Assembly: GCA_016873715.1 (NCBI GenBank)
Contig: VGWF01000035.1
Span: forward strand, 1 to 37,244
Direction of reading: 5' to 3'
DNA length: 37,244 nucleotides
Source of the DNA: Lentisphaerota bacterium
GTDB lineage: Bacteria > Verrucomicrobiota > Kiritimatiellia > PWTM01
Position 1 is the first letter of the stretch; each line of letters opens with the position of its first letter. Below the pieces are notes generated by a model that made no database searches, had not been told where the DNA came from, and saw nothing but the letters and a program-made list of their open reading frames with translations. Position numbers and translations under genes: made by a program. Shown here piece after piece: positions 8,648 to 37,244 of this stretch.

Positions 8648-8687
8648 GCAGGGAACACCCACCGGCATCCTCCCGCATTCGACCTCG

Positions 8688-8785
8688 GATGTTCGATGTT
8701 CGGTGTTCGATGTTGGACGTTGGTTGTTGGTTGTTGGATGTTGGTTGTTGGTTGTTGGATGTTGGTTGTTGGTTGTTGGATGTTG
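8688..8785. repeat. Heptanucleotide tandem array (14 in-phase units)
   Basis: Fourteen 7-bp units in perfect phase with consensus GRYGTTS, e.g. GATGTTC, GATGTTG, GTTGTTG, followed by two decayed units to 8799. The last ten units have a 21-bp higher-order period, two GTTGTTG then GATGTTG, repeated three times. The array lies just downstream of the sulfatase stop codon at 8801. It is in the gap of 250 bp between two minus-strand genes, which holds nothing else I can name. Confidence 0.9.
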
Positions 8786-8800
8786 AATGTCGAATCCCGC

Positions 8801-33192: not shown

Positions 33193-33216
33193 CGTGTCAT
33201 TCTCCTGTGTCCATGC

Positions 33217-33242
33217 GGCCGGCGTGGCAGCCGGCCCTCCCG
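33217..33242 (-). repeat. REP hairpin, TGCCAC-loop class (copy 1)
   Basis: Minus strand: CGGGAG foot, then stem GGCCGGC/GCCGGCC with loop TGCCAC. It faces the copy at 33275-33300 across a 32-bp spacer and lies 24 bp upstream of the pyruvyl-transferase start codon. Confidence 0.85.
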
Positions 33243-33274
33243 TACCGCGTCCAACGGCCCGATCGTCCGCCATT

Positions 33275-33300
33275 CGGGAGGGCGCGGTGCCACCCGCGCC
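33275..33300 (+). repeat. REP hairpin, TGCCAC-loop class (copy 2)
   Basis: CGGGAG foot, stem GGCGCGG/CCGCGCC, loop TGCCAC. Its stem differs from copy 1 at paired positions while the foot and loop are unchanged. Confidence 0.85.
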
Positions 33301-33324
33301 GGATGCGCCCGATATCGGTACCCT

Positions 33325-33489
33325 TCACCACGAAAGGAATCCCACTTCCCCCTGATAGGGCCAGTCCTCCGGCCGCGCCACAAGTCCCTTTCGCACCGGG
33401 TTCATGGCTACATAGGACCATTTCTCCCCGTAGTGCCGGGCGTCCCGGAGTTGGGTGTCCCAGCAGTCCCGCTGCCACAACCCGGTCCC
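33325..33489 (-). pseudogene. Duplicated intact C-terminal fragment of the RAYT transposase
   Basis: About 55 codons reading WQRDCWDTQLRD, then KWSYVAMNPVRKGLV and PEDWPYQGEV to a stop at 33325. This is the expected C-terminal part of a REP-associated tyrosine transposase, in frame. It lacks its own N-terminal half. It is the undamaged twin of the frameshifted copy in the next unit. Confidence 0.75.
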
Positions 33490-33515
33490 GGCCGGCGTGG
33501 CAGCCGGCCCTCCCG
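33490..33515 (-). repeat. REP hairpin, TGCCAC-loop class (copy 3)
   Basis: Same sequence as copies 1 and 5; it opens the second tandem unit and faces copy 4. Confidence 0.85.
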
Positions 33516-33547
33516 CACCGCATCCAACGGCCCGATCGTCCGCCATT

Positions 33548-33573
33548 CGGGAGGGCGCGGTGCCACCCGCGCC
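33548..33573 (+). repeat. REP hairpin, TGCCAC-loop class (copy 4)
   Basis: Identical to copy 2; partner of copy 3 across a spacer containing CATCCAACGGCCCGATCGTC, a spacer also found between other pairs here. Confidence 0.85.
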
Positions 33574-33763
33574 GGATGCGCCCGATATCGGTACCCTTCA
33601 CCACAAAAGGAATCCCACTTCCCCCTGATACGGCCAGTCCTCCGGCCGCGCCACAAGTCCCTTTCGCACCGGGTTCATGGCTACATAGGACCATATTCTC
33701 CCCGTAGGGCCGGGCGTCCCGGAGTTGGGTGTCCCAGCAGTCCCGCTGCCACAACCCGGTCCC

Positions 33764-33789
33764 GGCCGGCGTGGCAGCCGGCCCTCCCG
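33764..33789 (-). repeat. REP hairpin, TGCCAC-loop class (copy 5, inside the RAYT frame)
   Basis: Third copy of this REP, translated as GGPAATPAG in the RAYT frame, just before WQRDCW. It matches the ends of the tandem units, so it may have served as a recombination site. Confidence 0.85.
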
Positions 33790-34111
33790 GCGGGGGAGCC
33801 AGGGGACCGTGTCCCTCCACGGCACGCGCCACCATCCCCTTCCAGTATGCAACCCAGCGCTTCACGTTCTCGCTCTCCCGGTCGGCGGGCGAGCAGAACA
33901 GATGCACGTGATCCGGCATGATCATGTAACGGCCCACCGTCCACCGCTCCGCTCTCGACCATGCCTCCCGAAGCAGCGCATGCATCGACGGGCACGCCAG
34001 CACGGGACGGCGGTCCTGCGTGCAGACGGTGACGAACAGGATGGTGGCCTGGTTGAAGCGCTCCACGTTCGCGAGATGCACGGGGTGCTTCCGCTCGGGA
34101 CGCCCCGCCAC

Positions 34112-34137
34112 GGCCGGCGTGGCAGCCGGCCCTCCCG
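34112..34137 (-). repeat. REP hairpin, TGCCAC-loop class (copy 6)
   Basis: Stem GGCCGGC/GCCGGCC, loop TGCCAC, next to the first conserved residues of the RAYT domain. Confidence 0.85.
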
Positions 34138-34169
34138 CTTCGCATCCAACGGCCTGATCGTCCGCCGCT

Positions 34170-34195
34170 CGGGAGGGCGCGGTGCCACCCGCGCC
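34170..34195 (+). repeat. REP hairpin, TGCCAC-loop class (copy 7)
   Basis: Stem GGCGCGG/CCGCGCC, loop TGCCAC. Inverted relative to copy 6 and 54 bp from copy 8. Confidence 0.85.
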
Positions 34196-34223
34196 GCATC
34201 CAACGGCCCGATTGACCACCGTT

Positions 34224-34249
34224 CGGGAGGGCGCGGTGCCACCCGCGCC
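34224..34249 (+). repeat. REP hairpin, TGCCAC-loop class (copy 8)
   Basis: Same as copy 7, spaced exactly 54 bp, so it codes an 18-residue repeat (GAGGTAPSR...) when read in the RAYT frame. Confidence 0.85.
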
Positions 34250-34411
34250 GAATGCGCCCGTGCCCGCCGGCAACATCCCCTGCATCCCCCGCAGGTCCGC
34301 CGGCTCCATCGGCCGCAGGCGGAGGCCGCCGTTCACCGTCGTGGAATCCGTCACGCAACTCCCCTCATGCCGGTGCGGCCGAAGCCGTCGCGGCCCCGGC
34401 GCCCGCGTTGA

Positions 34412-36208
34412 TCATTTCGCCCCTGCCGCGGCCGCGCGAGCCCTGGAGTCCTGCCAGTCCCGCGTCCCTCCGAGCACGCGCAGCCACTGCGCCCCGGCGG
34501 CGATCAGGTGCGCGTAGCCGCCGGTGTCCGAGAACGCATCGAACGCCACGCCCGGCAGCGCCGACTGGCATCCGATCCCGGTCGGGATGTAGCCGTACGC
34601 GTCGAAGATCGCCTCCCACGTGCGCAGCCCCAGCCCCAGTTCGCGCTCGAGCGCCGCGCGGACGTCGGCGGACGAAGGTTCCGCCGTGCCGGTTCCGGGT
34701 TCCGCGTTCCGGGTTCCGCGTTGGATGTTGGGTGTTGGCTGTTGGTTGTTGGACGTTGAATCCGCCGTTCGATGTTGGGCGTTCGATGTTCGATGTTCGA
34801 TGTTCTCTTCTGGAAAGAACCCCGGCTTCCGTATCCTCTCCATCGCCTCGTCCCACAGCCCCGGCCGCTCCGCGAGCGCCTGGAGCGCCCAGCCGCTGAC
34901 GATCATGTTCTGCGGGCCGAAGCGTGAACCGATGGGACGCGGACCGCCGTGCGGCCCCTTTCGCTCCGAGCGCAGATCCTGCGGCCGGCCGTCGACGAAC
35001 TTGTAGGGATGGAGGTCGAAGACCCCGATGCCCGGCGGCGCGGGCGCGTCGTCGCAATAGGCGCGGTAGAGCATCGGCAGCGTGAACGCGTCGTAGACGA
35101 GGCGGAACGCGGCGGGCGCCGCCAGCGATCCCTCCCGCGCGACCGCGACATGGAACTGGTACACCTGGTCGTCCGCGAAGCCGGGCACGCTGACCGGCTC
35201 GCCGGGCTTGAACTCGACGACCGCGCGCCGCCAGTCGTTGCGGGCGGTCTCGACCGAGGCCCACGTCGTCTCGGGCAGCGACCGGCGGACCGCGTCGTCC
35301 CCCGACGCCACCGCGAGCGCCGCGCGCACCATCGGGATCGAGGGCGCCCCGTGGCGGGCGCGGCACTCCTGGAGGTTCCGCGCCGCGTCCGCGACCTGGG
35401 CCGCCAGCGCCCGCTCCGCGGGGTCCTTCGAGTCGTGCAGAAGCTCCCACGCGAGGAGGAGCATCACGGCGAGATCCTGCGCCATGTGGCTCGACGAGCC
35501 GTGGGAGTAGCCGCTCAGGCGCCCCTCGGGGTTGGGTCCGCTCCATTCGTTGCGGCCGGCGAAATTGACGTGCCGGTCGCCGTCGCGACGGTTGAGCATG
35601 TCGAGGCTGACCGACGCGCCGTCGTCCCACCAGTACGGGACGAAGCCCTTCTCGCGGCCCTGCAGAAGCCACTCCTTGCTCCCGCGCCAGCCGCGGTCGT
35701 CGCCGGGACGGCCGTCGTTGCGGTCGGAGGTGAAGAGCGCGTCGCCGCCGTTGAGCATCCGGACGTAGAACGGGAGCTGCCACCGCACGAGGACTTCGCG
35801 GTAGAACGGGTCGCCCGTCGCGCGCGCGGCGTGGACCATCGCGGCGGCGAACCAGGCGCCGTCGTGCATCGTGTCCAAGGCCTCGCCCTGGATCCACTGC
35901 TGCGGCGCGCCGGACTTCGCGACGTGGAAGTACTCGTAGATCATCCCGCGCTGCGGCGAATCGACGCGCTTGAGGTGGTGGTCGAGGACGTACGTCGCGA
36001 GGCGCTTCATGAACGCGCGGGTCTCGTCCGCCGTCATCGGCGGCTTCCCGCTCCAGGCGCGCGTCCAGGCGGGCCCGGACGCCGTCGGCGCGGCCGGGAC
36101 GGAGCCCGGCCCTCCAGCCGCGTTGGTCGGATTACGGTCGTTCGCCGCGGCCGCTCCGGCCGCCAGGATGACCAGGATGCCGATCCGCAGGTCCGCCGCG
36201 CGACGCAT
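34412..36208 (-). CDS. Secreted protein of unknown function, perhaps an alpha/alpha-barrel enzyme
   Basis: A 598-residue protein I cannot assign. Residues 1-19 look like a signal peptide. The bulk is helix-rich with conserved-looking aromatic patches (GMIYEYFHVAKSG, ALDTMHDGAWFAAAMVHAA, WWDDGASVSLDML, SGYSHGSSSHMAQDLAVML, FDLHPYKFVDG), suggesting an (alpha/alpha)6 fold like that of some glycoside hydrolases or lyases. Two repeat elements lie inside the frame: a REP hairpin at residues about 32-39 and a heptamer array in the region about 470-510, after GFFPEE. The rest resumes with SADVRAALERELG. GGAGGGTGAGG precedes the ATG at 36208. The gene is followed by the RAYT region. Confidence 0.7.
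   Translation of the reverse strand: MRRAADLRIGILVILAAGAAAANDRNPTNAAGGPGSVPAAPTASGPAWTRAWSGKPPMTADETRAFMKRLATYVLDHHLKRVDSPQRGMIYEYFHVAKSGAPQQWIQGEALDTMHDGAWFAAAMVHAARATGDPFYREVLVRWQLPFYVRMLNGGDALFTSDRNDGRPGDDRGWRGSKEWLLQGREKGFVPYWWDDGASVSLDMLNRRDGDRHVNFAGRNEWSGPNPEGRLSGYSHGSSSHMAQDLAVMLLLAWELLHDSKDPAERALAAQVADAARNLQECRARHGAPSIPMVRAALAVASGDDAVRRSLPETTWASVETARNDWRRAVVEFKPGEPVSVPGFADDQVYQFHVAVAREGSLAAPAAFRLVYDAFTLPMLYRAYCDDAPAPPGIGVFDLHPYKFVDGRPQDLRSERKGPHGGPRPIGSRFGPQNMIVSGWALQALAERPGLWDEAMERIRKPGFFPEENIEHRTSNAQHRTADSTSNNQQPTPNIQRGTRNAEPGTGTAEPSSADVRAALERELGLGLRTWEAIFDAYGYIPTGIGCQSALPGVAFDAFSDTGGYAHLIAAGAQWLRVLGGTRDWQDSRARAAAAGAK
34691..34802. repeat. Heptanucleotide array inside a coding sequence (16 in-phase units)
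   Basis: Sixteen 7-bp units in unbroken phase. They start as GGTTCCG types, switch to TGTTGGN, then TTCGATG, and include one decayed TCCGCCG. On the coding strand the frame stays open and gives heptad peptides such as NIEHRTS and DSTSNNQ. The same GATGTT and GTTGTTGG units occur at 8688-8785. Confidence 0.88.
36092..36115 (-). repeat. REP hairpin, CTCCGT-loop class, inside a coding sequence
   Basis: Minus strand GGAG foot, stem GGCCGGG/CCCGGCC, loop CTCCGT. It lies in the N-terminal part of the secreted-protein gene, just after the signal peptide, and reads GGPGSVPAA in frame. Confidence 0.75.
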
Positions 36209-36309
36209 AGGCCTCACCCTCCGCCGCCCGCCCCGGGACGGCGCGGCCATCATCGGCGAGCCGGCGACCGCCGACAAGCGGCACATCGCCCGGCATGAAA
36301 CGGCCCTGC

Positions 36310-37244
36310 CTACCGCGCGTCGGCCTCGCCGGACCGGCCGAGGGTCTTCAACTGGCGGTCGGTGACCAGGAGGACGAAGCCCTTCCCCGCGGCGCCGTCG
36401 GTGGAGCGCTTCACGGCGGCCGGCTTGGTCCCGTACTCGATCAGCAGCACGGGCTTTCCGGCCTTCGTGGCGCGGTCGAGGAAGCCGAGGCTGGGGTCCA
36501 CATGGTTCTTGGGCTGGTTCCTGTTTCCGTCGGTGAACAGGTCCTCGACGCCGACCGCGTCGACGGTCGCGAGGAACGCCGCGTCTTCGAGAAGCTGCAC
36601 GCCGTTCTGGGGGATGACCACGAAGCCGGGCTTCCGGCGCCGCGCCTCGTCCGCGATGCGCCGCACCCACGCGATCATGTCCTCGCGGTAGGTCTTCCCG
36701 GTCGCCGGGTTGGGCCGGTGGTCGATCCAGTCCTTCGTCGCCGGGTCGAACTCGAAGGTCTCGAACGCGTCGACGAGATCGAGGTAGACCCCGTCGAAAC
36801 CCGCGCGGACGATCGCCTCCAGCTGCCCGAGCATGATGTCCTGCCACGCCGCGTCCCAGTAGCGGACCTTGTAGTTGCCCTTCCACTCGGGATTCTCGTC
36901 GCCCAGCCACGCCGGCGCCTTCGGATCCGGCCGGCCGTCGCGCGCGGTGTCCCACTCGCGCTTCCAGTAGGGCCGGTAGTTCTCCGCCTCGCCGATCGAG
37001 AGGTAGGCCACCACCTTCCGGCCGGCCCGCCCGGACCGGATGGCCGCGAGGTCCTTTTCCGCCCACCGGCCGTCGTCGTCGCCCTCGAAGAACGGATCCA
37101 GGATGATCCAGTCCCGCCCGCAGTCCGCCAGCCGCCGCACGACCTCGCCCCGCGTCTTGCCCAGGCCCTCCGCCTGCAGCACGTACGCGAAGCTCCGCGG
37201 CGCCGCGGGCGCCCCCGCCCCGACCCGCCCCGCCGCACACAGAA
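36310..37244 (-). CDS. GH114-like secreted glycoside hydrolase, 5' end cut by the window
   Basis: At least 311 residues; the start lies beyond 37244. The first visible residues (CAAGRVGAGAPAAPRSFAYVLQ) look like the end of a signal peptide or lipoprotein leader, so only a short piece is missing. The body matches the TM1410/endo-alpha-1,4-polygalactosaminidase (GH114) barrel: DWIILDPFFEGDD, VVAYLSIGEAENYRPYW, FDGVYLDLVDAFETF with catalytic-type Asp residues, VIPQNGVQLLED, VGVEDLFTDGN, LLIEYGTKPAA. Such enzymes cleave amino-sugar polymers like Pel, but substrates vary. A GTG at 37182 inside the frame is not the true start because the family's FAYVLQ motif lies before it. Confidence 0.75.
   Translation of the reverse strand, partial: LCAAGRVGAGAPAAPRSFAYVLQAEGLGKTRGEVVRRLADCGRDWIILDPFFEGDDDGRWAEKDLAAIRSGRAGRKVVAYLSIGEAENYRPYWKREWDTARDGRPDPKAPAWLGDENPEWKGNYKVRYWDAAWQDIMLGQLEAIVRAGFDGVYLDLVDAFETFEFDPATKDWIDHRPNPATGKTYREDMIAWVRRIADEARRRKPGFVVIPQNGVQLLEDAAFLATVDAVGVEDLFTDGNRNQPKNHVDPSLGFLDRATKAGKPVLLIEYGTKPAAVKRSTDGAAGKGFVLLVTDRQLKTLGRSGEADAR

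Follow-up and report, generated by a model that had tools for sequence, protein, structure and literature searches.

The window analyzed here, a stretch of 37,244 nucleotides from a Lentisphaerota bacterium, contains a gene for a REP-associated tyrosine transposase (RAYT) that loses its reading frame ahead of the catalytic tyrosine, and an intact copy of the lost half follows downstream. This arrangement raises the question of whether the locus is the OFF state of a reversible switch or simply a decaying gene, both of which had been proposed in an earlier note, and of how a transposase came to carry one of its two halves twice. We consider it probable (roughly 70%) that the REP-bounded tyrosine (Tyr) half was duplicated and that the translated copy then acquired a loss-of-function frameshift, leaving a one-way repair possible.

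The broken gene and its REP array

The frame opens at 34354 on the minus strand and runs toward lower coordinates into an array with the layout REP-X-REP-X-REP (33216-33789), whose two tandem units, 273 and 274 bp long, are nearly identical. The features of the locus are:

33696-34354, minus strand: RAYT frame up to the break
about 34075-34354, minus strand: REP-coded N-terminal tail
34170-34196 and 34224-34250: two inverted partner REPs, in frame in the N-terminal tail
34111-34137: upstream REP, in frame in the N-terminal tail
about 33793-34075, minus strand: HUH half, with HVH at 33902-33910
33763-33789, minus strand: gene-internal REP copy of the HUH-Tyr linker, translated in frame as GGPAATPA
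33489-33762, minus strand: proximal unit, 274 bp including the lower REP
33695, minus strand: extra base (placement ambiguous by ~1 base), shifting the frame ahead of the catalytic tyrosine
33548-33575, plus strand: inverted partner REP of the proximal unit, pairing with 33489-33515
33489-33515, minus strand: REP copy at the unit-unit junction
33325-33546, minus strand: open reading frame of the distal unit, 73 aa, with its own ATG
33216-33488, minus strand: distal unit, 273 bp including the lower REP, tyrosine half intact
33412-33414, minus strand: SYVAMNP tyrosine of the distal unit
33275-33302, plus strand: inverted partner REP of the distal unit
33216-33242, minus strand: array-closing REP copy, downstream of the gene

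The three 27-nt REP copies of the array (33763-33789, 33489-33515 and 33216-33242) are mutually identical, and the segments between them, 247 nt (33516-33762) and 246 nt (33243-33488), differ by 5 substitutions and one indel, the extra base at 33695. The divergence between the two units is ~2%, and the longest exact runs common to both do not exceed 82 nt. The edges of the array are REP edges: the homology of 33217 with 33490/33764 ends there on both outer sides, with the left limit one base beyond the 26-nt REP core and the right limit at the right edge of the core. A pair of near-identical units of ~273 bp is not explained by chance matching. The earlier note had correctly placed identical REPs 274 bp apart at equal positions in the two units, as found at 33763-33789 and 33489-33515; the tandem units that it described are real, but the repeat extends to 33216, beyond the 33490 at which the note had ended it.

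Within the proximal unit, which consists of a REP, the frameshifted tyrosine half, a stop in the other frame and a REP pair, the open frame passes the first REP as GGPAATPA, continues to DARPYGEN and then loses SYVAMNP, exactly the effect that had been attributed to an extra base near 33695. In the distal unit, the frame stays open through SYVAMNPVRKGLV up to the stop. The equivalent REP edges 33789 and 33515 have equal codon phase, which bears out the claim of an intact second copy in frame. The catalytic tyrosine is accordingly absent from the product of the window gene and present in the distal unit. When the closest relative (G340, see below) is used as the outgroup, the extra base and three coding substitutions appear, by eye, to be derived in the proximal unit, and no derived change falls in the coding part of the distal one, a 4/4 split that is not statistically significant. 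Programmed frameshifting was considered and rejected because inspection by eye revealed neither a homopolymer nor a slippery run at 33695. No RNA elements scored above the gathering threshold within the window, and no tRNA was found at the locus.

Several features place the gene among the RAYTs (2010 paper, PMC2817692). The HUH motif is present as HVH in IMPDHVHLFCSP, the HUH half matches the HUH profile built from relatives (see below) with 115.9 bits, and cognate REPs are found on both sides of the gene and at other places in the genome, as is characteristic of RAYT/TnpAREP. Against the NCBIfam model NF047646 (REP-associated tyrosine transposase), the upstream frame aligns over profile positions 7-135 with 48.6 bits, and the 33325-33546 frame over positions 102-145 of 146 with 52.1 bits. 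Both scores fall short of the curated 80-bit cut-off, as expected given that each match is only a piece of a gene; other RAYTs of the same genome score 86.4 and 81.1 bits. The Pfam Y1_Tnp score at the window gene is only 16 bits. The SYVAMNP tyrosine corresponds to Y115 of Escherichia coli TnpAREP (the WEYVRNNP of a relative aligns within residues 92-135 of 4er8_A), and Y115F is a catalytic mutant of that enzyme (PMC8266576). The best named match to the HUH half comes from a Kiritimatiellae metagenome-assembled genome (54% identity). Judging by these motifs, the window gene appears to be a broken member of the family, not a working one.

The 27-nt REP unit folds into a 7-bp stem with GTGG in the loop of one strand and, by eye, without a GTAG foot at the base. 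With up to 2 mismatches, it occurs in 18 places in the genome, 10 of them exact, including 4 exact ones within the window; the reversed-pattern control yielded 0. Other repeats were noticed along the way. Two contig ends of the same genome (L019:1-290, G000:C83, and L020:1-530, G000:C144) carry tandem arrays of the window's REP pair with a period of ~113 bp and may be two ends of one array. A further array in this genome (L021:1493-2328, G000:C101) comprises 6.7 copies of a 126-bp unit with a different palindrome. Within the window, arrays of 7-bp units (GTTGGAT, GTTCGAT, GGTTCCG, GGATGTT) occupy 34677-34805, inside the long open frame 34412-37240, and 8687-8790.

Internal REPs in related RAYTs

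Profiles of the HUH and Tyr halves, built from 17 insert-free relatives, were used to scan 164 loci and the window. Once HUH matches scoring below 20 bits or not reaching profile position 60 had been removed, along with 13 duplicate loci from the window's genome, 110 distinct HUH halves were left, 109 of which have a Tyr half within 700 nt. The reading frame is maintained across the linker in 108, among which we count the window gene, its break being inside the Tyr half; the single exception, L162, contains no REP. This sample is not random, being composed of similarity-ranked loci, stretches of the window's genome and 60 further places chosen by hand.

At least 20 nt of the linker recur elsewhere in the same locus in 29 of the 109 genes, or 28 once a whole-gene duplicate (L113) is set aside; recurrence was scored from exact 14-mers found again beyond the linker in the fetched sequence, a few kb per locus, so that weak or distant REPs are missed. 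All 28 repeat-bearing linkers, the window's included, are in frame and free of stops. By the same test, the HUH half recurs in 3 of the 109 (L110, L113, L121) and the Tyr half in 2 (L113 and the window). Measured from profile end to profile end, linkers without an insert are mostly 7-14 residues long and those with one reach 118, with insert sequences varying from genome to genome; two long linkers (L036, L065) showed no recurrence. Furthermore, 30 of the 109 loci share 15 nt or more between the linker and the 600-nt flanks, and downstream matches of this length are direct in 20 loci and inverted in 4. Thus, the duplication-prone layout is common among these loci.

On a tree of 101 RAYTs, the REP-linker label (27 rows) takes 13 changes, at least 5 of them forced by starred branches, against a mean of 23.9 after shuffling. 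Labeling was done by hand and covered 28 genes, without L113, L121 and L125; one of the 28 (L064) was dropped by a 60-bit cut. In this phylogeny, with many forks unresolved, the label is clustered, but with several gains or losses.

A second Tyr half was seen in the window only, both among the 109 RAYTs and, by eye, among the matches listed across 345 genomes; the absence of other half duplications likewise holds for the matches so read. In one genome of the window's family (G008), the mirror arrangement was found: a single open frame reads REP-HUH-REP-HUH-REP-Tyr. The HUH module repeats every 516 nt, a length divisible by three, with 98.6% identity and REP clusters at the edges, and this HUH half is the best class match to that of the window among the matches listed (64%). 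Two REP-bounded duplications of opposite halves within one family support the view that RAYTs may be duplicable as modules via their internal REPs. In the same genome (L172:2500-3905, G008:C7), the HUH-duplicated RAYT is in frame with an upstream protein that, by eye, looks methylase-like, in an open stretch of 1300 aa.

The closest relative among the matches listed (G340) is 77% identical over the Tyr half. Its linker REP pair, together with ~20 nt of linker, is repeated directly after the stop, beside a run of Ns that could hide a duplicated Tyr half. With 56 RAYT matches, another genome (G036) greatly exceeds the other relatives; in one of its genes (L064), the same REP pair is present in both the linker and the N-terminal tail. 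In L113 (G019:C30), two whole RAYT genes lie in tandem, ~1.3 kb apart.

Tyr halves lacking a partner were considered as possible products of unit deletion, and this explanation was rejected. Most of them are duplicate loci of counted genes, or genes in which the HUH half was filtered out or scored weakly; three (L098, L134, L138) adjoin a contig end, and in L132 the gene is frame-broken, with a HUH motif nearby.

A separate observation concerns RAYTs located in frame inside long host genes, which we found in eight relatives (L176:1737-5033, G040:C53; L173, L177, L178, L179, L180, L182, L183), all taken from 11 hand-picked loci with long frames; the Y1_Tnp match of L178 is just below the Pfam cut-off. 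According to Pfam, the host genes encode alanyl-tRNA synthetase, MmeI, HsdR, a helicase, an Eco57I methylase, a B12-binding radical SAM protein, HypF and a CCA/poly(A) polymerase. In 8 of the 8 insertions, the two joints have direct or inverted repeats of 15 nt or more in common. The interrupted alanyl-tRNA synthetase, its two parts flanking the RAYT, is the only one found in a 94%-complete genome; for the interrupted CCA enzyme, a second, uninterrupted copy is present. L181 instead has its RAYT as a C-terminal fusion, and two further candidates (L174, L175) were set aside as apparently spurious or repeat-made. No published RAYT insertions in frame within host genes were found in the literature search, and these insertions may outrank the array in interest.

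Origin of the array, unit loss and alternative explanations

The RAYT gene holds its own REPs upstream, in the HUH-Tyr linker and just after the stop. The linker REP and the downstream REP are direct repeats, and recombination or replication slippage between them could duplicate the REP, the Tyr half, the stop and the REP; a single unequal event between the gene-internal REP and the one just past the stop would be the simplest origin, and the coincidence of the array edges with REP edges fits such a REP-REP duplication. Translation would have continued to run through the first copy, into which one base was then inserted ahead of the catalytic tyrosine. The resulting product keeps HUH and lacks the tyrosine and the C-terminus, most likely with loss of activity, and the gene would now be a decaying pseudogene.

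The anatomy of the array, with REP-bounded edges and a single extra base, supports this duplication followed by decay. It appears to be further supported by the match of both halves to the family, with the tyrosine aligned to Y115 of TnpAREP; by the equal phase, the crossover shares given below and the coding changes probably derived in the proximal unit; and by the direct REPs around the Tyr half that are common in relatives, along with the duplication of the opposite half, HUH, in a second genome of this family. Counting against it, the array and the extra base are known from one assembly, and the 58 relatives include none of the window's genus. Tandem duplications should often be lost, and a divergence of ~2% between the units is thus high for one. 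Other RAYTs of the genome might, in addition, act in trans on the same REPs.

Since an undamaged second Tyr half follows in phase, losing one unit could restore the gene once. After a crossover within the 94 bp between the REP and the extra base, that is, ahead of 33696, the HUH half would continue in phase into the intact Tyr half. The region in which a crossover repairs the gene holds 93 of the 295 exactly matching columns (32%), or 37% of the start points when exact stretches of 30 nt are required; about two thirds of the shared homology would instead lead to deletions with the extra base retained. The full transposase that the earlier note expected from a one-unit deletion is therefore predicted only for crossovers between the REP and 33696. 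Direct repeats, equal phase and a lone frameshift speak for a reversible ON/OFF switch through loss and gain of tandem units, but the repairing deletion removes the only copy with the extra base, and re-duplication would copy the intact unit, yielding two good ones; therefore, the locus would not cycle, and a return to OFF needs a new mutation. Moreover, by eye, there is no simple-sequence tract at the break, no second Tyr half was seen in the 108 other fetched RAYTs that have both halves, and these 108 together with the 58 relatives, none of the window's genus, gave no sign of a maintained two-state system. We therefore regard a switch as highly improbable; simple decay, the other option offered in the earlier note, fits better.

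The main rival of duplication and decay, albeit an unlikely one, is an artefact in which the units or the extra base stem from a mixture of strain haplotypes or from faulty assembly of a repeat. The assembly consists of 289 contigs, REPs break contigs in relatives (the contig ends of L098, L134 and L138, and the N-run at the downstream REP of G340), and the ~2% difference between the units would suit a strain mixture. However, the units differ at several sites and share no exact run longer than 82 nt, such that longer k-mers can tell them apart, and the array has a sensible biological origin with a mirror case. An improbable variant that differs from duplication and decay solely in the cause of the duplication is that the RAYT itself cut and rejoined the REPs of its own gene, REP-X behaving as an IS200/IS605-type unit with REP ends. 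It would account for the array edges at REP edges and for the second REP-bounded duplication in the family, and TnpAREP cleaves REP single strands and joins the ends in vitro (PMC8266576); but homologous recombination or slippage between REPs yields identical edges, and an excised or moved copy of X was not found elsewhere in the genome. A truncated HUH product could also cooperate with a separately translated Tyr peptide from the distal frame (33325-33546, 73 aa), which has its own ATG; in IS200/IS605 dimers, active sites are shared in trans. This split protein is extremely unlikely given that, by eye, no Shine-Dalgarno sequence precedes 33546 and none of the relatives in the 109-RAYT survey has this arrangement.

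Beyond duplication and decay at this locus, a broader idea, which we consider quite doubtful, is that RAYTs with REPs between and around their halves are self-editing, the halves being duplicated, lost and rejoined as REP-bounded modules by the enzyme's own cutting. If true, the duplications of the Tyr half here and of the HUH half in G008 would reflect a built-in brake with occasional repair.

Comparison with known systems

Phase-variable switches resemble the window locus in that a repeat-mediated deletion could restore the frame, but the locus is not reversible: a return to the first state is not predicted, and two states are not in evidence. We find the setting, namely the internal REPs, more interesting than a switch. 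Tandem REPIN clusters, as described by Bertels and Rainey 2011 (PMC3116915), likewise contain REP pairs and flanking DNA in tandem, whereas here the flank in question is a coding gene's 3' half. Di Nocera et al. 2013 (PMC3733652) cover intragenic REPs, described for many genes, as well as Rickettsia palindromic elements, which share with this locus palindromic repeats in frame within coding genes; in our case, the repeats sit in the gene of their own transposase and mark the limits of a half-gene duplication. In the literature searched, which left out most subscription papers, we found no published half-gene duplication of a RAYT, and nothing relevant was found on repeats of Kiritimatiellae.

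The closest precedent is TnpAREP subclass 2.4 (RAYT group 4 of Bertels 2017, per PMC6006769): Quentin et al. 2018 (PMC6006769) report in-frame REPs inside these tnpAREP genes, for the most part located between HuH and Y. The window gene shares with this subclass the HUH/Tyr core, REPs around the gene and an in-frame REP (33763-33789) between HuH and Y, a likeness of layout, and differs from it in having the REP-bounded Tyr half twice in tandem, with a frameshift in the proximal copy. Thus, REPs in RAYT linkers are already known, and the REP-bounded half-gene duplication appears to be the new element. Direct-repeat REPs bracket each catalytic half, and half-gene duplications occur in two genomes of one family, which suggests that internal REPs, hitherto known as tolerated in RAYT linkers, also restructure the gene. 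This offers a testable route by which a domesticated transposase could be silenced and might be restored, and poses the question of whether the enzyme itself does the cutting.
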